Below, piece after piece: positions 10,398-60,561 of a DNA stretch of 64,000 nucleotides. Position numbers and translations under genes: made by a program. The stretch comes from Terriglobia bacterium (GTDB lineage: Bacteria; Acidobacteriota; Terriglobia; Terriglobales; Acidobacteriaceae). The stretch covers positions 186,001 to 250,000 of the forward strand of contig JAVUPY010000025.1 in the NCBI GenBank assembly GCA_032252755.1, in the 5' to 3' direction. Each line of letters opens with the position of its first letter. Position 1 is the stretch's first letter. Below the pieces are notes generated by a model that searched no databases, was not told the origin of the DNA, and was given only the letters and a program-made list of their open reading frames with translations.

Positions 10398-10728
10398 GGT
10401 AGCGAGAAAGATTACGAGGAGAACTTCTATGGTCGATATTCCGATTGGGAACTCCGTCGGTGGAAATTCGGCAGGGGGGCCATCGTCAGAAGGTACAGGT
10501 CAGCGGCTCCATTGTGAATAGTATCTTGAGGGCTCTATAAGACAAAACAGTGCACAATTCAGGATCGGTACTCACCGGAAAATGGAAAACGGGAGCACGG
10601 ACAGGGTCGTGTCGGAAGCCATGCACTTCGGGTACCCTAAAGCGTCCATTGACCGTCAACTCGGAACAGGGGTAACCTTCTGGCAAGAGTTTTGTGTCCG
10701 GGGATGGCAAGCGGGCATCAACTCACGT

Positions 10729-11202
10729 ATGTCTATGTCGCAACAGACTAAGAAATACCTCCAGTTCGGCGCCGCAATCACCGTCATTGTGCTTGCTCTT
10801 GGATACCTTGCTTTCACCGGAGCGCAGGAGAGCAAGAGCTATTACAAGACCATCAAGGAACTGAACGCGATGGGCGATAAGGCCCACACGATCCGTTTGC
10901 GTGTGGCGGGGAACGTTCAGCCGGGATCGATCAAGCGGCATGGGCAGCACGTTGACTTCAACCTGATAGAAGAGGGCCAGGTCCTGCCTGTTGACTACGT
11001 TGGGACGGAAGCGCCGCCCGACACATTCAAGGATAATTCGCAGGCAATGGCCGAGGGCACCTATGGGCGCGACGGCATTTTCCATGCGCAGAAACTGCAG
11101 GCGAAATGTGCCTCGAAGTACGCGCCGCAGCAAGAGCAACAGAACTCGCCTTCGGCAACCACCCAGAAGGCTGAGGTCAGTCCACAAAGCTATTCCAAGT
11201 GA
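10729..11202 (+). CDS. ccmE: Cytochrome c maturation heme chaperone CcmE, CxxxY type
   Basis: CcmE receives heme from CcmABCD and carries it to the ligation step of c-type cytochrome assembly. This 157-residue protein has an N-terminal membrane anchor (13-31) and the OB-fold sequence LRVAGNVQPGSIKR, then PVDYVGTEAPDTF-like and AEGTYGRDGIF motifs. Classical CcmE binds heme through a His in an HxxxY motif; here the equivalent is KCASKYAP, with Cys127 and Tyr131. That Cys form is known from archaea and some bacteria with a variant System I. A Gln/Ser-rich tail follows. It starts the operon, and its stop overlaps the ccmA start (GTGA). An ATG at 10735 is an alternative start. Confidence 0.9.
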   Translation: MSMSQQTKKYLQFGAAITVIVLALGYLAFTGAQESKSYYKTIKELNAMGDKAHTIRLRVAGNVQPGSIKRHGQHVDFNLIEEGQVLPVDYVGTEAPPDTFKDNSQAMAEGTYGRDGIFHAQKLQAKCASKYAPQQEQQNSPSATTQKAEVSPQSYSK

Positions 11203-11978
11203 GCTCCACCCACAGCACGGGATCTGTTCAAGACCCACGTCTGCCAAAAGAAGGCAGAATTGGGGCGCCGAAGCTTCCCGATAATCCCAGTAACGAGCCG
11301 GCAATCCGACTTTCGGAAATCGCGAAACATTTTGGACGATTTGCTGCGCTGCGCGGGATTACAGCAGATTTTGCGCCGGGGAAACTGTATGTCATTCTCG
11401 GCGAAAATGGAGCGGGGAAGAGCACGCTGCTGAGGATTGTCACAGGGCTGCTGGCCCCGACGCGAGGTAAGGTTTCGGTGCTGAGGTCGGAGGATCTGCG
11501 TTCGGTCGCGATGCGCGTGGGGTACATGGGGCATGCGCCGCTGCTCTACGACGAAATGGACGCGATAGAAAACATGCGCTATTTCGCGGGGCTCTATGGG
11601 ATCTGTGACGATGGGCGCTGCGCCGACGCTTTGCGGCGAGTGGGACTGGATCCGAAATTGACGCGGCGTGTGGGACAGTACTCTCAAGGAATGCGGCAGA
11701 GGACGTCACTGGCGCGAGCGATTGTTCATGACCCGGAACTGCTGCTGCTGGATGAGCCGTTTTCGAATGTGGACGTGGCGTCTGCGCGGGAGATGTCGCG
11801 GCTGCTGGGCGTTATGCGCGATGGCGGCAAGACGATCTTCGTGGTGACGCACCAGGCGCCGGTGATGGAACCGGTGTGCGATGAGGCTGTGCTGATCTCG
11901 GCCGGGCGGATTGCGGCGCGGGAGAAAGGTATTCCACCGTACCTGCTTTCGCCATACGCGCAGGAGGTGGCAAAGTGA
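11199..11978 (+). CDS. ccmA: Heme exporter ATPase CcmA
   Basis: CcmA is the ATPase of the CcmABCD complex, which releases heme-loaded CcmE. Walker A is GENGAGKST, the signature is YSQGMRQR and Walker B is LLLLDEP, with the switch His in VVTHQ. The 259 residues exceed many CcmA proteins because of a roughly 30-residue N-terminal leader before the ABC domain. The GTG start overlaps the ccmE stop by four bases and the stop overlaps ccmB by four, so translation is probably coupled. Clustering with ccmB and ccmC distinguishes it from generic ABC ATPases. Confidence 0.93.
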   Translation: MSSTHSTGSVQDPRLPKEGRIGAPKLPDNPSNEPAIRLSEIAKHFGRFAALRGITADFAPGKLYVILGENGAGKSTLLRIVTGLLAPTRGKVSVLRSEDLRSVAMRVGYMGHAPLLYDEMDAIENMRYFAGLYGICDDGRCADALRRVGLDPKLTRRVGQYSQGMRQRTSLARAIVHDPELLLLDEPFSNVDVASAREMSRLLGVMRDGGKTIFVVTHQAPVMEPVCDEAVLISAGRIAAREKGIPPYLLSPYAQEVAK

Positions 11979-12679
11979 CCTCCCCGACGCTGACGGCAAT
12001 TACCCGCGCTACGCTGGCAAAAGACTTGCGGCTGGAGTGGCGGTCGAAGGACGCCATCAACTCCATGCTGTTTTTCGCGCTGCTGGTGGTCGTGATCTTC
12101 GCGTTTGCGTTCGATCCCACGGCGGAGCAGTCGCGGCAGATAGCAGGAGGCTTGATATGGACGGCGCTGCTGTTTGCGACGGTGGTGGCGCTGAACCAGA
12201 CATGGGCACGCGAACTCAGGAACAACGTGCTGGATGCGTACCGGGTTTCGCCGGCGCCGCCGAACGCGATGTTCCTGGCGAAGTCGATTGCGAATTTCAT
12301 TTTTGTTGCCTTGTTGCAGGCGGTGATGACACCGCTGTTCGTGGTCTTCTACAGCCTGCGATCGATCGGGCCGGTATGGCAGTTGGTAGTGATCGGATTG
12401 CTGGCGAACTGGGCGCTGGTCGTGAACGGGACGTTTTTCGCGGCAATGTCGATTCGGACGCGCAATCGCGAGATCATGCTGCCGTTGATCCTGTTCCCGC
12501 TATCAATTCCGGCGCTGCTGGCAATGGTCGAAGCGACGACGCAAGTGCTGACGGGAACCTCGCAGGTACTGACCGGTGCGTCGTGGCCGCGGTTCTGGGT
12601 GCAGTTCTTGGGAGTTTACGATGTGGTGTTTACTGTCGTGTGTCTCGTACTATTTGAAACCGTGTTAAACGCCGAATGA
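11975..12679 (+). CDS. ccmB: Heme exporter membrane protein CcmB
   Basis: The 234-residue product has six predicted membrane segments and a CcmB-like N-terminus (KDLRLEWRSKDAINSMLFFALLV). It also has the internal motif RNNVLDAYRVSP, close to the ATPase-coupling region of the family. It pairs with CcmA in the membrane. The start overlaps the ccmA stop and its own stop overlaps ccmC, both by four bases. A direct repeat near the C-terminus (VLTGTSQVLTGAS) is a small local duplication. Confidence 0.92.
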   Translation: MTSPTLTAITRATLAKDLRLEWRSKDAINSMLFFALLVVVIFAFAFDPTAEQSRQIAGGLIWTALLFATVVALNQTWARELRNNVLDAYRVSPAPPNAMFLAKSIANFIFVALLQAVMTPLFVVFYSLRSIGPVWQLVVIGLLANWALVVNGTFFAAMSIRTRNREIMLPLILFPLSIPALLAMVEATTQVLTGTSQVLTGASWPRFWVQFLGVYDVVFTVVCLVLFETVLNAE

Positions 12680-13362
12680 AAAAGTCATTCATTATTTTCG
12701 CGATCGGTACATTTGTGTTGCTGTCGTATGCGCTGTACATGGCGCTGGTGGTTGCGCCGACAGAGGCGACGATGGGCGACGTGCAACGTATCTTCTATTA
12801 CCACGTTCCCAATGCGTGGTGCGCCTTCCTTTGCTTCCTGGTGAACGCAATTGCCTCCGTCTGGTACCTGGTGAAGCGCGGGGTTAAATCCGATGCGCTG
12901 GCCTTGGCATCGGCGGAAGTTGGTGTCGTTTTTTGCAGCGTTGTGCTGGTGACAGGGCCGATCTGGGCGCGGCCGGTATGGGGGATCTGGTGGACGTGGG
13001 ATGCGCGGCTTACCAGCACACTGGTGCTCTGGCTGATTTATGTTGCGTACCTGATGCTGCGCCGGTTCTCGGGAACTGGAAGAGCGCCGGTGTTGGCAGC
13101 GACGCTGGCGATATTCGGCTTCTTCGACGTGCCATTTGTCTACCTTTCGATCCGGATCTTCCGGACGCAACACCCGCAACCGGTGATGGGCGGCGGGCAG
13201 AATTCTGGGCTCGACCCGACGATGGCACATGCCTTTCTCTGGAACCTGCTGGCGTTCACGTGTTACTGCGCGCTGCTGATCTGGCTGCGGTACCGGATGC
13301 AGGTTGCGGAGCAGGCGATCGAAGAAGCGCACGCGGAACGCGCACTTGGGGAGGGAGCATGA
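12676..13362 (+). CDS. ccmC: Heme-handling protein CcmC
   Basis: CcmC presents heme to CcmE on the outer face of the membrane. The tryptophan-rich motif VWGIWWTWDARLT (101-113) is intact, and the two flanking histidines that hold heme are visible: His43 in YYHVPNAW and His166 in RTQHPQPV. Six membrane segments are predicted in 228 residues, the usual family length. The stop overlaps the start of the small ccmD-like gene (ATGA). Confidence 0.95.
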   Translation: MKKSFIIFAIGTFVLLSYALYMALVVAPTEATMGDVQRIFYYHVPNAWCAFLCFLVNAIASVWYLVKRGVKSDALALASAEVGVVFCSVVLVTGPIWARPVWGIWWTWDARLTSTLVLWLIYVAYLMLRRFSGTGRAPVLAATLAIFGFFDVPFVYLSIRIFRTQHPQPVMGGGQNSGLDPTMAHAFLWNLLAFTCYCALLIWLRYRMQVAEQAIEEAHAERALGEGA

Positions 13363-18595: not shown

Positions 18596-18632
18596 CCCAC
18601 TCAGGCCAACAGAGGGCTTGAATGGGGCACCC
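18596..18632. repeat. Degenerate family A palindrome at the ctaA start
   Basis: CCCACTCAGGCC faces GGGCTTGAATGGGG and ends in GCACC, the same 3' end as the clean copies at 2298 and 7248. It overlaps the ctaA start codon, so the first codons of ctaA (Met-Gly-His-Pro) come from the repeat. Confidence 0.5.
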
Positions 18633-19593
18633 AGCGAACAACAGAACTCAGGAGATTTCTACGACCTCGGCGACACCTTTCAATAAAGGTCATCACAGGT
18701 TTGCTGTGCTGACTGCCTGTTGGGTATTCGGTCTAATCATTTTTGGAGCGCTCGTTACCAGCAACGACGCGGGACTTTCGGTTCCGGATTGGCCCACTTC
18801 TTTCGGATCGCTCTATCGCATTCCTCCGCTGAACGGCGGCGTCTTCTACGAACACATCCATCGCATGATTGCGCAGGGCGCGGGATTGCTCACGATTATC
18901 CTGGCGGTTTGGACGCAGAAGGTAGACCGGCGCGGATGGATGCGGAAGCTGGGATGGACGGCACTTGGACTTGTGATTGCGCAGGGGATTCTGGGCGGTT
19001 TGACGGTGCTGTTCTATCTGCCGCCGTGGATTTCGGCGGCGCACGCAACACTCGGGCAGACGTATTTCTGCGTAATGGTGAGCCTGGCGCTGTTCACGAG
19101 TCGAGGATTCATTGAGCGCGCGCCGTTGCACCTGCCGCAGAACGAGCGTCCGCAATTGACGACCCTGGCATACGCTTCGGTGGCGGCGGTGTGGCTGCAG
19201 TTGGTGTTCGGTGCGGCCTTCCGGCACAACGGTATGAAGATCATGTGGCACCTGGCGTGGTTCGTCGTGGTGTTCACGGTGCTGATGTGGACGATGATGC
19301 GCGTACTTCGCGGCTATCGCGAGGTGGTGGAACTGCGGCGTCCGGCGTTCTGGCTGATGGGATTACTGACACTGCAGATCCTGTTGGGCTTCGGCGCGTT
19401 CGTTACGCGCGTGGTATTGAGTCCGAATTCGCCGGAACCGATGACGAGCCTGGTGATCACGACCGTGGCACACGTCGCGGTTGGAGCGCTGGTGCTGGCG
19501 AACACGGTAGTGCTGGCAGTCGAGGCAAGACGGCATTTAGCGGTGACCAAAGAAGAAGCTGTAGAGACCACGGGGAAGGCACTGGTGGCATGA
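18622..19593 (+). CDS. ctaA: Heme A synthase CtaA/COX15
   Basis: CtaA oxidises the methyl group of heme O to give heme A for cytochrome oxidases. The 323 residues hold eight predicted membrane segments in two halves. Heme-ligand motifs are FYEHIHRMIAQGAG and AAHATLGQ in the first half, with His pairs (RHNGMKIMWHLAWF, TTVAHVAVG) in the second. An in-frame stop sits immediately before the ATG, so 18622 is the earliest possible start. The stop overlaps the ctaB start by four bases. Confidence 0.92.
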   Translation: MGHPANNRTQEISTTSATPFNKGHHRFAVLTACWVFGLIIFGALVTSNDAGLSVPDWPTSFGSLYRIPPLNGGVFYEHIHRMIAQGAGLLTIILAVWTQKVDRRGWMRKLGWTALGLVIAQGILGGLTVLFYLPPWISAAHATLGQTYFCVMVSLALFTSRGFIERAPLHLPQNERPQLTTLAYASVAAVWLQLVFGAAFRHNGMKIMWHLAWFVVVFTVLMWTMMRVLRGYREVVELRRPAFWLMGLLTLQILLGFGAFVTRVVLSPNSPEPMTSLVITTVAHVAVGALVLANTVVLAVEARRHLAVTKEEAVETTGKALVA

Positions 19594-20519
19594 GCAGCAT
19601 TTCGCAAGCTATTGTTGTTTCGCGCGGCGGCATGGCGCTGCTGCGCGACTATTCCGAACTCGTAAAGGCTCGTATCACGATGTTGATTGTGATCAGCGCG
19701 TGGTGCGGATTTTACTGTGGGGCCGCGCGGTCAGAAGTCAGTTCGCTTTCGTGGACGCTGGTGAACGCACTGCTGGGAATCGCACTGGTTTCGGCGGGCA
19801 CGGCCGGAATGAACGAGGTCATGGAGCGCGACATCGATGCGCGGATGCAACGTACTGCGCGCCGTCCGCTGGTGACGCAGACGATGAGCGTTCAACATGC
19901 CGCGCTGGTGTCGATCGCGATGATTGTGGGCGGGACGGTTTATCTCGGGTTCACCTGCAACATTCTCACGGCGGCCCTGACGTTTGCGACGTCATTCGTC
20001 TATCTTGGCTTTTACACGCCTCTGAAAACGGTGTCGCCTATCTGTACGTTCATTGGGGCGATTCCGGGGGCAATGCCGCCGGTGCTGGGGTGGGCAGCGG
20101 TTCGAGGGCGACTGGACTGGGAAGCGTTCGTACTCTTCGCGATCCTGTTCTTCTGGCAGTTCCCGCACTTCCACTCAATCGCATTGCTGTATCGGGACGA
20201 TTACCGGCGCGCGGGTATTCGGATGCTCCCGGTGGTGGAGCGATCCGGACGGACGACGGCCGATGCCATCGTCTTCTACTCTCTTGCGCTGCTGGCGGTG
20301 ACGCTGGCTCCGACCCTGCTGGGAATGACTGGCTACACCTATTTCTTTAGCGCCTTGGTGCTGGGTTTATGGGTGCTGATGGCGGGCCTGAAAATTTGGC
20401 GCGCTAGGCTCGATCCGGATCTTCCAGAGGCGAAAGTGTTGGCCCGCAACCTGTTAAAGACGACGGTGTTTTACCTGCCGCTGCTGTTTGCCATCATGAT
20501 GCTGAACATAGTGAGCTAG
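19590..20519 (+). CDS. ctaB: Protoheme IX farnesyltransferase CtaB
   Basis: CtaB prenylates heme B to heme O, the step before CtaA. From the ATG that overlaps the ctaA stop, the 309-residue protein carries the prenyltransferase motifs NEVMERDIDARMQRT (first Asp-rich motif) and YRDDYRRAGIRMLP (second). Nine membrane segments are predicted. The frame is open for another 130 codons upstream inside ctaA, but that part is a frame shadow. With ctaA it forms a heme A operon. Confidence 0.95.
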   Translation: MSSISQAIVVSRGGMALLRDYSELVKARITMLIVISAWCGFYCGAARSEVSSLSWTLVNALLGIALVSAGTAGMNEVMERDIDARMQRTARRPLVTQTMSVQHAALVSIAMIVGGTVYLGFTCNILTAALTFATSFVYLGFYTPLKTVSPICTFIGAIPGAMPPVLGWAAVRGRLDWEAFVLFAILFFWQFPHFHSIALLYRDDYRRAGIRMLPVVERSGRTTADAIVFYSLALLAVTLAPTLLGMTGYTYFFSALVLGLWVLMAGLKIWRARLDPDLPEAKVLARNLLKTTVFYLPLLFAIMMLNIVS

Positions 20520-57880: not shown

Positions 57881-59425
57881 ATGAACTATCCGGTCTGGCA
57901 ACCGGGATTCCCCGGCGGCCTCCTCATCGCCATTGTGGCGGTCACCCATGTTTTCGTCTCGCATTTTGCCATTGGAGGTGGGGCTTTTCTCGTCATCACT
58001 GAGCGCCGCGCCTATGCGCGCTCCGATGACGCCCTGCTCGGCTACGTCCGGCGTCACTCGAAGTTCTTCGCCTTGCTCACCCTGGTCTACGGCGCCATCA
58101 GCGGAGTCGGCATCTGGTTCACAATCGGACTGGTGGCACCCGAAGCGACCTCGTCGCTGATTCATACGTTCGTCTGGGCATGGGCAATCGAGTGGGTGTT
58201 TTTCTTTGTCGAGATCACGGCGGCCATCATCTACGCCTCAAACTGGGATCGCCTGGACCGCGCCACGCATATGGCGATCGGCTGGATTTATTTCGTCGCC
58301 GCGTGGATGAGCCTGTTCGTCATTAACGGAATCATTACCTACCAACTCACGCCGGGGCGCTGGCTGCAAACGCATTCAATCTGGGATGGGCTCTTCAATC
58401 CCACGTACTGGCCTTCGTTGTTCCTGCGAACCTCAGTAGCGGTATTGCTCGCGGGCGTCTTCGGCCTGGTGACCGGAAGGCGCGAGCAGGGCGAAGTTCG
58501 TGAACGCGTCTATCGCTGGGCGGGGCAGTGGATGGTCGCGGGTTCGATTTTGCTGCCGTTGCTGGCGTGGTGGTACTACTCGCGCTTTCCGGAGTTTTCG
58601 CGTGCGCTGCTCGGCGGAGATATCCCGGCGGCGAAGCATCCGATCCGAATGGGACTGCTCTCGGCTGTGCTGGTGTTCGTCCTTGGACTGATCTTCGCGG
58701 TCTGGAAGCCGCGAGCGATGAGAACACCAGTGATCGTGTTGCTTGTCTTTTTCGCATTCTCCCTGATGGCGAGCGGTGAGTACCTGCGCGAGTTCGTTCG
58801 AAAACCCTGGGTCATCAATGGCTATATCTATGCCAATGGGGTGCGAGCTTCGGATATACCAAGGCTGCAGCAAACCGGATTTGCCCCAGGGCCGGCGTTC
58901 ACAACCACGGATGACAGATCCAGCATTGAGTATGGGCGCGACCTGTTCGTTGACCAATGCGGAAGCTGTCACACCGTCAACGGATACCGGTCGATGAGTA
59001 AGAGGGTATATGGCTGGGATCCGGCGTTTGCCGCTGCAATGCTCTCGCACATCCAGTTGCTGCGCGGCGCCATGCCGCAATTCGCAGGGAACGAACAGGA
59101 CCGCGAGGCGCTCGGAAAGTATCTTGCTTCTCTGAATCCTCTTCCGGATTACACACACGTCAGCGATCGCATGGCGGCGGGGAAGCAATCGTTCGACAAT
59201 CGTTGCGGGCATTGCCACACCATCGACGGCAAGATGAGGCCGTTGAAAGCAGCGTTCGCCGGCGGTGGGCCTGACCAGGTGCAAGGATTGCTTCCCGTGC
59301 TGGACTCCATGAGTTCAAATATGCCGCCGTTCACGGGGGACCCTGAGGAGGCTCAAGTACTGGCAGAGTACATCGCGCGAATGTCAAATCCGCAACCGGC
59401 CGGAGCCGCAAAAGGAGGGGAGTGA
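57881..59425 (+). CDS. Cytochrome bd-like oxidase subunit with two C-terminal c-type heme domains
   Basis: GGAGG lies four bases before the ATG. The first 315 of 514 residues hold about eight membrane segments. TM1 has HVFVSH (His23, His28), where CydA has its heme ligand. The sequence EFVRKPWVI (304-312) matches the CydA motif EYGRQPWAI, putting Glu304 on the conserved heme-ligand Glu. Two cytochrome c domains follow: CGSCH (360-364) with Met398 in AMPQFAG, and CGHCH (442-446) with Met481 in NMPPFTG. This fits an oxidase taking electrons through heme c rather than only from quinol. Its stop overlaps the next gene. Confidence 0.85.
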   Translation: MNYPVWQPGFPGGLLIAIVAVTHVFVSHFAIGGGAFLVITERRAYARSDDALLGYVRRHSKFFALLTLVYGAISGVGIWFTIGLVAPEATSSLIHTFVWAWAIEWVFFFVEITAAIIYASNWDRLDRATHMAIGWIYFVAAWMSLFVINGIITYQLTPGRWLQTHSIWDGLFNPTYWPSLFLRTSVAVLLAGVFGLVTGRREQGEVRERVYRWAGQWMVAGSILLPLLAWWYYSRFPEFSRALLGGDIPAAKHPIRMGLLSAVLVFVLGLIFAVWKPRAMRTPVIVLLVFFAFSLMASGEYLREFVRKPWVINGYIYANGVRASDIPRLQQTGFAPGPAFTTTDDRSSIEYGRDLFVDQCGSCHTVNGYRSMSKRVYGWDPAFAAAMLSHIQLLRGAMPQFAGNEQDREALGKYLASLNPLPDYTHVSDRMAAGKQSFDNRCGHCHTIDGKMRPLKAAFAGGGPDQVQGLLPVLDSMSSNMPPFTGDPEEAQVLAEYIARMSNPQPAGAAKGGE

Positions 59426-60561
59426 TGCTGCAGCCAAACAACATCCCGATTCCCGTAGCCGATCCGATGCCGCTCCCTGCTCCGGTGTGGTTGCTGAAGA
59501 CTCTGCTGCTCGTTCTTTTCTTCCTGCATGTCCTGTTCATGAATTGCACTCTGGCTGGCGGATTGACCGCGCTCTTCAATGCCATTCGCGGGCGAAGTGA
59601 CCGGCACCCGCTCTCCCGCCGGTTATCGTCCGAACTCGGGCGCGTGTTGCCGGTATTCGTTGCTTTCACCGTGACACTGGGCGTTGCAGCATTGCTGTTT
59701 GTCCAGGTGCTCTATGGCAATCTGCTTTACACAAGTTCGATTCTCATCGGCGCATACTGGATCAGCGTTATCGTCCTCGTGATTCTGGGATACTACGGGT
59801 ATTACTACTACAACTCACACAGTGGCGAGCGGGCGTCGACGGCATCGATCGCGGTTCTCGGGGTTTCGGTGGCGTGCTTCCTGACGATCGGGTTCATCTT
59901 CACCAACAACATCACGCTGATGTGGTCGCCCGAGAAGTGGCTGGCAATGTATCGCGCACACACCAACGGGGCGCAGTTGAATCTAGGAGATCGATCGATC
60001 TGGCCACGCTACCTGCATACCATCATCGGTTCATTCGGTGTGTTCGCAGCGGTGCTGGCGCATTATGGAACCCTGCAGTTCAAGAAGGACAGAGAGTACG
60101 GCGCCTGGCTGGTGCGTCGGGCGTCGGTCGCCTTTGCTGGAACCACGATTCTGCAATTCCTTATAGGGATGTGGTTCCTGATGGCCTTGCCGAAGAACGT
60201 TGCGATGATCTTCTTCCGCGATGGACTCGGAGTCTCGATATTCGCAATGGCTCTGCTTACAACCCTTGCCGCAACGATTCTCCTTCTGGTCGGCGGTACG
60301 GCCAGGGAGCCCTCGCCGCTGATTCATGCGGGTTTCGGCATGGTATTAGTCACAGTCGCGCTGATGGTGGTCATGCGGGACATGGTTCGGACGGCATCGT
60401 TGAATCCCTACTTTCAACTCTCGCGCTTGCAGGTATCTCCGCAGACAGGTGTGATTATCGTTTTCCTGCTGACATTTGCCGGAGGTCTGGCTACGCTGGT
60501 GTGGATGCTGAGGAAAGTTGCGCAGAGCCGCGGTCGCAGTGCGGCCGCTTCCGCAAAGTGA
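59425..60561 (+). CDS. Second CydA-like membrane subunit of the bd-type oxidase
   Basis: The ATG at 59425 overlaps the preceding stop; a GTG one codon earlier is also possible, and GGAGG lies six to seven bases upstream. The 378 residues have about nine membrane segments. TM1 carries His35 (FFLHVLFMN) and a following Gly-Gly, laid out as in the first subunit, so the two look like diverged copies. No CxxCH motif is present. It probably forms a heterodimer with the first subunit, in the place taken by CydB in classical bd oxidases. Confidence 0.8.
   Translation: MLQPNNIPIPVADPMPLPAPVWLLKTLLLVLFFLHVLFMNCTLAGGLTALFNAIRGRSDRHPLSRRLSSELGRVLPVFVAFTVTLGVAALLFVQVLYGNLLYTSSILIGAYWISVIVLVILGYYGYYYYNSHSGERASTASIAVLGVSVACFLTIGFIFTNNITLMWSPEKWLAMYRAHTNGAQLNLGDRSIWPRYLHTIIGSFGVFAAVLAHYGTLQFKKDREYGAWLVRRASVAFAGTTILQFLIGMWFLMALPKNVAMIFFRDGLGVSIFAMALLTTLAATILLLVGGTAREPSPLIHAGFGMVLVTVALMVVMRDMVRTASLNPYFQLSRLQVSPQTGVIIVFLLTFAGGLATLVWMLRKVAQSRGRSAAASAK

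Follow-up and report, generated by a model that had tools for sequence, protein, structure and literature searches.

Two adjacent genes, at positions 57881-60561 of a stretch of 64,000 nucleotides from a Terriglobia bacterium (Acidobacteriota; assembly GCA_032252755.1, contig JAVUPY010000025.1, positions 186,001 to 250,000; the whole stretch is hereafter called the window), are likely to code for an oxygen reductase of the cytochrome bd type, a heterodimer that would receive its electrons from cytochrome c. Electrons would most likely enter through heme c, since the Q-loop and the heme b558 histidine of the quinol-oxidizing enzymes are gone, the first cytochrome c domain is invariant among relatives and Rieske and cytochrome b genes belong to the operon in some of these relatives. 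The features of the pair are the following:

57881..59425, forward strand: gene 1, putative catalytic bd-type subunit of 514 amino acids, with 8 long predicted membrane helices (residues 12-307) and residues H23, E104, E111, E304 and R183.
58925..59131, forward strand: first cytochrome c domain of gene 1 (residues 349-417), with CxxCH at 360-364 and Met 398; PF13442 matched at 350-415; invariant among relatives.
59165..59395, forward strand: second cytochrome c domain of gene 1 (residues 429-505), with CxxCH at 442-446 and Met 481; found in roughly half the relatives.
59425..60561, forward strand: gene 2, partner subunit of 378 amino acids, with 9 long predicted membrane helices; distant paralogue of gene 1.

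The start of gene 1 is the ATG at 57881, with GGAGG a few bases 5' of it. The ATG of gene 2 (59425) overlaps the stop of gene 1 by one base, and an in-frame GTG lies one codon earlier.

Gene 1 matches PF01654 (Cyt_bd_oxida_I) over residues 16-194 (E 7e-12; 45.1 bits for a cut-off of 26.2). It also matches Cytochrome_CBB3 (E 6.6e-15), its cytochrome c domains being matched twice, and both families are matched by all 30 members of the gene 1 alignment. The sole PDB match found by single-sequence search is 9r2g_A (E 1.4e-5), and the best bd chain found by profile is 5doq_A (E 1.9e-8). Both subunits were modelled as monomers with AlphaFold2, from 30 sequences for gene 1 and 26 for gene 2. The model of gene 1 (predicted local distance difference test, pLDDT, 89.0; predicted template modelling score, pTM, 0.84) superposes on CydA of the E. 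coli bd-II oxidase (7ose_A) with a Z score of 33.0 and a root-mean-square deviation (rmsd) of 2.9 over 313 residues, and 9r2g_A is the top Foldseek match of both subunits. On profile and predicted fold, gene 1 is therefore a member of the bd superfamily with a CydA fold, as the initial annotation of this DNA had proposed. That proposal depended on at least one subunit belonging to the superfamily by profile or structure; gene 1 matches PF01654, and the predicted folds of both subunits are CydA-like.

Residues of gene 1 were mapped by aligning it with E. coli CydA and the Geobacillus structure 5doq_A, and they were counted over 103 loci, that of the window included. Duplicate loci (L137, L171 and L195) were dropped before counting, a piece (L083) was replaced by the window protein, and gene 1 frames of less than 330 residues and gene 2 frames of less than 250 residues were left out of the counts. 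H23 corresponds to E. coli H19, which we take to be a high-spin heme residue, and is found in 101 of 102 rows. The equivalents of E99 (E104, 102/103), E107 (E111, 99/103) and H126 (H130, 97/103) are also kept, as is E304 (100/103), whose motif EFVRKPWVI matches, through 5doq_A, the motif EYGRQPW of E. coli E445. According to the model presented in a passage of PMC6853902, Glu445 is on heme b595 and Glu99 on heme d. The window protein has all four pocket residues (H23, E104, E111 and E304), and the alignment thus indicates that the residues of the high-spin heme pocket are retained in gene 1. The EFVRKPWVI motif with E304, the two CxxCH sites and Met 398 and 481 had all been correctly located by the initial annotation. 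A copper site formed by additional histidines of gene 1 was considered and set aside, H28 (94/102) and H95 (66/103) being variable.

A bd fold might also serve another redox step, such as the reduction of nitric oxide or the exchange of electrons between the membrane and periplasmic c-type cytochromes. The fold is indeed more widely spread, since the gene 1 model also aligns with subunits of alternative complex III and polysulfide reductase (Z 16.1-18.4), and the host genome already has a canonical CydAB and a CtaD-type cytochrome c oxidase. However, CydA chains of bd oxidases score well above these subunits (Z 30.5-33.0) and the equivalents of H19, E99, E107 and E445 are nearly invariant, so that we consider this explanation unlikely.

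The entrance for quinol seems to be missing from gene 1. Passages of PMC6853902 give His186 and Met393 as the ligands of E. coli heme b558 and a length of 136 residues for the Q-loop with its linkers. In gene 1, the place of H186 is occupied by R183, an arginine in all 103 rows. Met 257 of the window protein, near the place of M393, sits in a column dominated by L, V and A and is not conserved; the alignment with CydA is gappy around the seventh transmembrane helix (TM7), which makes the M393 place less certain than that of H186. The loop between TM6 and TM7 has a median length of 15 residues (range 13-37), with an alignment gap at the Q-loop. Judged from these alignments, the Q-loop and the b558 histidine are lost from subunit 1.

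The initial annotation had suggested that the pair may accept electrons from cytochrome c or combine both routes. The first part is supported by a subunit 1 that has neither Q-loop nor b558 histidine, by the invariant first c domain and by the Rieske/cytochrome b operons; there is no support for a combination of the two routes, since the quinol module of CydA is absent. The pair could nonetheless still be a quinol oxidase, or use both donors, with the c domains acting as an electron store or as a second entrance. Such a reading draws on precedents: a passage of the 2021 review PMC8509429 states that all bd enzymes characterised by then oxidise quinol, and a figure legend of PMC8951039 describes a mycobacterial bd oxidase whose quinol site has moved near heme b595. 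It has to accommodate the absent Q-loop, the arginine found at the histidine place in every row, the invariance of the first c domain and the separate Rieske/cytochrome b pair found in the same operon of nine relatives, and we regard it as improbable.

The ligands of the first c domain are strictly kept: C360, C363 and H364 are each found in 102 of 102 rows and M398 in 101 of 101. By contrast, the number of CxxCH motifs in gene 1 varies, with two or more in 51 of the 103 rows, one in 51 and none in a single truncated row. The second c domain, whose model has a cytochrome c6 fold (Z 9.4, rmsd 2.9 over 76 residues), would have changed at least six times on the gene 1 tree, from which three truncated rows were left out. 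Therefore, the first heme c is the constant one and the second a recurrent variant. Gene 1 frames with three CxxCH motifs are found in L147, L155 and L159, and gene 2 frames with one in L169 and L188. Since gene 1 has eight long helices and a predicted topology that starts as in CydA, its C-terminal c domains would lie on the periplasmic side, as the attachment of heme c requires.

No Pfam or NCBIfam family, PF02322 included, reaches its cut-off for gene 2, and an alignment of 26 homologues fares no better in Pfam; the expectation of the initial annotation that both subunits hit the CydA profile thus fails for gene 2 in plain hidden Markov model searches. Matches to a papillomavirus helicase and to domains of unknown function (E 0.012 or weaker) are under the cut-off and were taken as chance, as was the single match of the gene 2 profile to PDB sequences (E 1.4). 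Profile-profile comparison relates gene 2 to gene 1 (97.8%, E 1.2e-12), and the profile of each gene finds single frames of the other gene from other loci, with best E values of 3.7e-6 (gene 1 profile) and 1.7e-10 (gene 2 profile). Gene 2 also aligns with canonical CydA (82.0%, E 1.1e-5, in local mode; 15.3% in global mode). Its AlphaFold2 model (pLDDT 90.8, pTM 0.89) superposes on CydA 6rx4_A with a Z score of 29.1 (rmsd 4.0 over 349 residues). CydA chains reach Z 26.0-29.1 in this structural ranking, which gives one row per PDB entry and in which CydB chains are not ranked, and they also lead the Foldseek search. Gene 2 is thus, as far as profile-profile comparison and predicted fold can tell, a distant paralogue of gene 1 with a CydA fold.

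We compared gene 2 with CydB using a set made of E. coli CydB and 35 of its matches among the loci, some of them duplicates. CydB was rejected on local scores (14.6%, compared with 82.0% for CydA and 97.8% for gene 1). However, in global mode gene 2 fits CydB better than CydA (38.9% versus 15.3%, and 65.0% versus 3.0% with a larger set), gene 1 being far ahead of both (98.8-99.1%). Having neither the Q-loop, nor the b558 ligands, nor a CydB partner, the pair is outside the canonical quinol oxidases.

The association of the two genes is conserved. Gene 2 is found alongside gene 1 in 96 of the 103 loci, downstream in 81 and upstream in 15. Seven loci lack it. The sequence of four of them (L031, L042, L088 and L192) ends at the gene or close to it; the genomes of L031 and L033 have gene 2 at another place, and no gene 2 was recognisable within the 13 kb stretches examined in L176 and L177. 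Relatives of gene 1 occur in 66 of 297 sampled genomes of the host phylum. Furthermore, the gene 2 profile finds matches at E 1e-20 in 36 of 392 genomes sampled from the phylum of a Phycisphaerae metagenome-assembled genome (MAG) and in 39 of 395 from that of a Nitrospirae MAG, some of the weakest matches possibly being gene 1-like frames. In these two phylum samples, a gene 1-like frame accompanies gene 2 in 51 of 58 loci (59 of 69 with additional loci).

Named relatives are carried by plasmids of Thermus thermophilus (two), Agrobacterium tumefaciens and Methylosinus. On the Methylosinus (L051) and Agrobacterium (L048) plasmids, three genes follow the pair, a small one and those of an ATP-binding protein and a response regulator, and methanobactin synthesis genes lie a few kb beyond the pair in Methylosinus. 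These plasmid neighbours give a hint of copper-linked control of the pair.

The order gene 2 - Rieske - cytochrome b - gene 1 is found in nine of the 103 loci, and a tenth such locus (L088) ends within cytochrome b at a contig end. Pfam confirms cytochrome b in the four proteins examined from the nine loci and Rieske in the three examined. No further credible c-type cytochrome was found on the same strand in the stretches examined around these operons; the lone motif match, in L090, looks like a shadow frame. This suggests that the c domain of gene 1 may replace cytochrome c1 in these operons. On the gene 1 tree, all these loci cluster in a single supported clade; it has 16 rows, and in six of them the pair occurs but the bc genes do not. 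A wider conserved operon was looked for and rejected: in the 103 loci, the only recurrent neighbours with a constant position are gene 2 and, in this clade, Rieske and cytochrome b. The remaining recurrent clusters listed appear to be antisense or shadow frames, dispersed paralogues or synteny restricted to one genus.

Some heme-related positions are kept in gene 2 and others are not. In the first transmembrane helix (TM1), whose histidine layout was said by the initial annotation to be repeated in the second subunit, only the first histidine is kept (H35, equivalent to H23 of gene 1), N40 being at the place of H28. H35, aligned with E. coli H19, is present in 150 of 150 rows, and R195 (152/154), R318 (152/154) and R322 (151/154) are near-invariant. 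By contrast, position 319, aligned with the b595 ligand, is D in 56, H in 43, E in 31, Y in 14 and Q in 6 of 154 rows.

Moreover, in the alignment of gene 2 with CydA, H198 falls on H186, the b558 histidine, and it varies together with M314. In 91 rows, both residues are present in 78 and both absent in 13, with no mixed row. With more phyla (154 rows), both are found in 123 and neither in 29, two rows having only the methionine and none only the histidine. The figures are 120, 28, 2 and 0 for the 150 rows left by the removal of three double entries and one near-copy (98% identity or more), and 103, 27, 2 and 0 for the 132 rows that are under 80% alike. The column that best follows H198 is M314, with no discordant row compared with seven for the next of 39 comparable columns in the 91 rows, and with a correlation of 0.96 compared with 0.75 for the next column in the larger set. 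A Fisher p value computed on the 91 rows ignores the relatedness of the proteins. Changes of the pair number at least four on the gene 1 tree and six on the gene 2 tree, three of these being forced by well-supported branches; the trees were built by a quick method and have no bootstrap values. The simplest reading of this covariation is that subunit 2 would hold a low-spin heme b with His198 and Met314 as ligands. M393 of E. coli CydA lies in TM7, whereas M314 is in the eighth long helix of the gene 2 model; hence, the site in subunit 2 would be a rebuilt one and not the old one.

Alternatively, gene 2 could be purely structural, like CydB, with H198 and M314 forming a packing pair or copper ligands instead of binding heme. 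CydB itself shares the fold and, according to a figure legend of PMC8951039 and a passage of PMC6853902, has a quinone or aromatic side chains at the heme places of CydA; position 319 is variable, the independent changes of H198/M314 are few and the global alignments described above favour CydB over CydA. On the other hand, the local alignments favour CydA and place gene 1 first, H198 falls on the b558 ligand with M314 its best partner by a wide margin, and H35 and the three arginines are invariant or nearly so. We therefore consider a structural role doubtful, while giving it a good deal more weight than either a quinol oxidase or a redox step other than oxygen reduction.

Taking the pair as an oxygen reductase fed by cytochrome c, we infer a route in which O2 would be the substrate and cytochrome c the donor, together with the subunit 2 heme, the order of electron transfer and the stoichiometry that it implies. 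A periplasmic c-type cytochrome would reduce the heme c domains of subunit 1; in some relatives, the Rieske protein would reduce them directly. Electrons would then pass, possibly through the His198/Met314 low-spin heme b of subunit 2, to the two high-spin hemes of subunit 1, held by H23, E104 and E304, where O2 would be reduced to water. A more specific proposal can be put forward tentatively, its chances being somewhat below even: the low-spin heme b would have moved, being lost from subunit 1 (Arg for His) and built in subunit 2 with His198/Met314 (the methionine of TM8, not of TM7). This would make the pair a cytochrome c oxidase with a bd fold; in one acidobacterial lineage, it would combine with Rieske and cytochrome b to form a quinol-to-oxygen supercomplex, the c domain replacing cytochrome c1.

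Several points weigh against an oxygen reductase of this kind. As of the 2021 review (passage of PMC8509429), all the biochemically characterised bd cytochromes are quinol oxidases. We know of no report of biochemistry for such a pair. Rieske and cytochrome b are found at only nine of the 103 loci, all of which have one CxxCH in gene 1 compared with two in the window. Furthermore, alanine replaces E304 in L160 and L161, and neither H23 nor E104 is found in the aligned sequence of L191; the high-spin pocket is therefore not universal among relatives, and these three are possibly not oxygen reductases. The H198/M314 pair has few independent events and its sign tests (p 0.125 and 0.25) are not significant; as the events are too few, its support lies in the near absence of mixed rows and not in a p value. 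Of the nine gene 2 proteins linked to Rieske, eight are also without this residue pair, as are those of Thermus and Methylosinus and of L158 and L178. Its absence from all of these fits a changed electron route. Finally, the host genome encodes other terminal oxidases, so this one need not be the main one. The natural presence or absence of H198/M314 among relatives provides a ready-made comparison for the heme proposed in subunit 2.

The branch to which the pair belongs has already been named. The bd superfamily comprises three families, only one of which has a quinol site, the others being said to use cytochrome c or possibly another donor (passage of PMC8509429); they are called qOR, OR-C and OR-N in passages of PMC13189123, PMC11707229 and PMC10839748. 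The pair shares with canonical CydAB (qOR) the fold of both subunits, the pocket residues H19, E99, E107 and E445 and a two-subunit operon, but differs from it by the absence of a Q-loop, the arginine in place of the b558 histidine, a partner outside the CydB family and the addition of heme c domains. OR-C enzymes are said, after Murali et al. 2021, to have a CydA-like subunit with a cytochrome c domain and no quinol site. Gene 1 does carry a heme c domain on a CydA-like subunit, and the pair probably belongs to this family.

The partner being a CydA paralogue, as indicated by its profile match to gene 1, the pair also resembles the putative OR-N or CydAA'-type oxidases of Nitrospira and Nitrospinota. 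Passages of PMC6606698, PMC12342949 and PMC10839748 describe these as pairs of CydA-like subunits thought to use cytochrome c, some of which cluster with complex III or alternative complex III. PMC12342949 and PMC10839748 place such partners in OR-N families, the likeness to our pair being one of description. For instance, Nitrospira moscoviensis has complex III beside bd-like oxidases (passage of PMC6606698), and hence the idea of a bc/bd-like supercomplex is not new. The structures closest to gene 1, 9r2g (Mycobacterium smegmatis, qOR-2 type) and 5doq (Geobacillus), are named menaquinol or quinol oxidases and match its membrane part only. No description of such a fusion, operon or pair was found among the matches listed in the open-licence literature; what seems to be new is the heme site of subunit 2, which we did not find described in the accessible literature. 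For this bd branch, the donor has been predicted in the literature and we found no measurement of it; the pair, with its relatives in the host phylum and on the Thermus, Methylosinus and Agrobacterium plasmids, makes the question directly testable.

The host genome (5.39 Mb) is 99.98% complete and 3.03% contaminated. The closest named relatives of gene 1 are from acidobacterial MAGs (63%, 58% and 55% identity), and the gene pair is probably of acidobacterial origin. Canonical CydAB is encoded on a different contig, which holds the sole PF02322 match of the genome. The genome also encodes the cytochrome c oxidase of the CtaD type, about 5 kb from which lies an NrfD-family gene, and a second COX1-family protein; it has two cytochrome b matches and seven NrfD matches. 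A supply of reduced c-type cytochromes is therefore plausible, and the pair would be one oxidase of several. An 821-amino-acid COX1-family protein (L085, 5627-8092, reverse strand, host contig C27), with no NCBIfam match at 1e-10, is perhaps a quinol-type nitric oxide reductase; a gene for an iron-sulfur repair di-iron protein (RIC) lies near it.

Genes for heme supply are present in the window. Those encoding CcmE, an ABC ATPase, CcmB and a cytochrome c assembly protein are located at 10582-13362 (forward strand), the ccm genes having already been pointed out by the initial annotation, though 44 kb from the pair. A COX15/CtaA-like gene and a UbiA-family gene lie at 18622-20519 (forward strand). 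Together, these genes suggest a supply of c-type heme and of heme A/O.

An ArgR-type arginine repressor gene (PF01316, PF02863; 60563-61006, forward strand) begins one base past the stop of gene 2, and in the closest relatives (L012-L014) a gene judged by eye to be argC-like is found downstream of gene 1, at a distance of 1.7-1.9 kb. Hence, the gene pair adjoins arginine genes.

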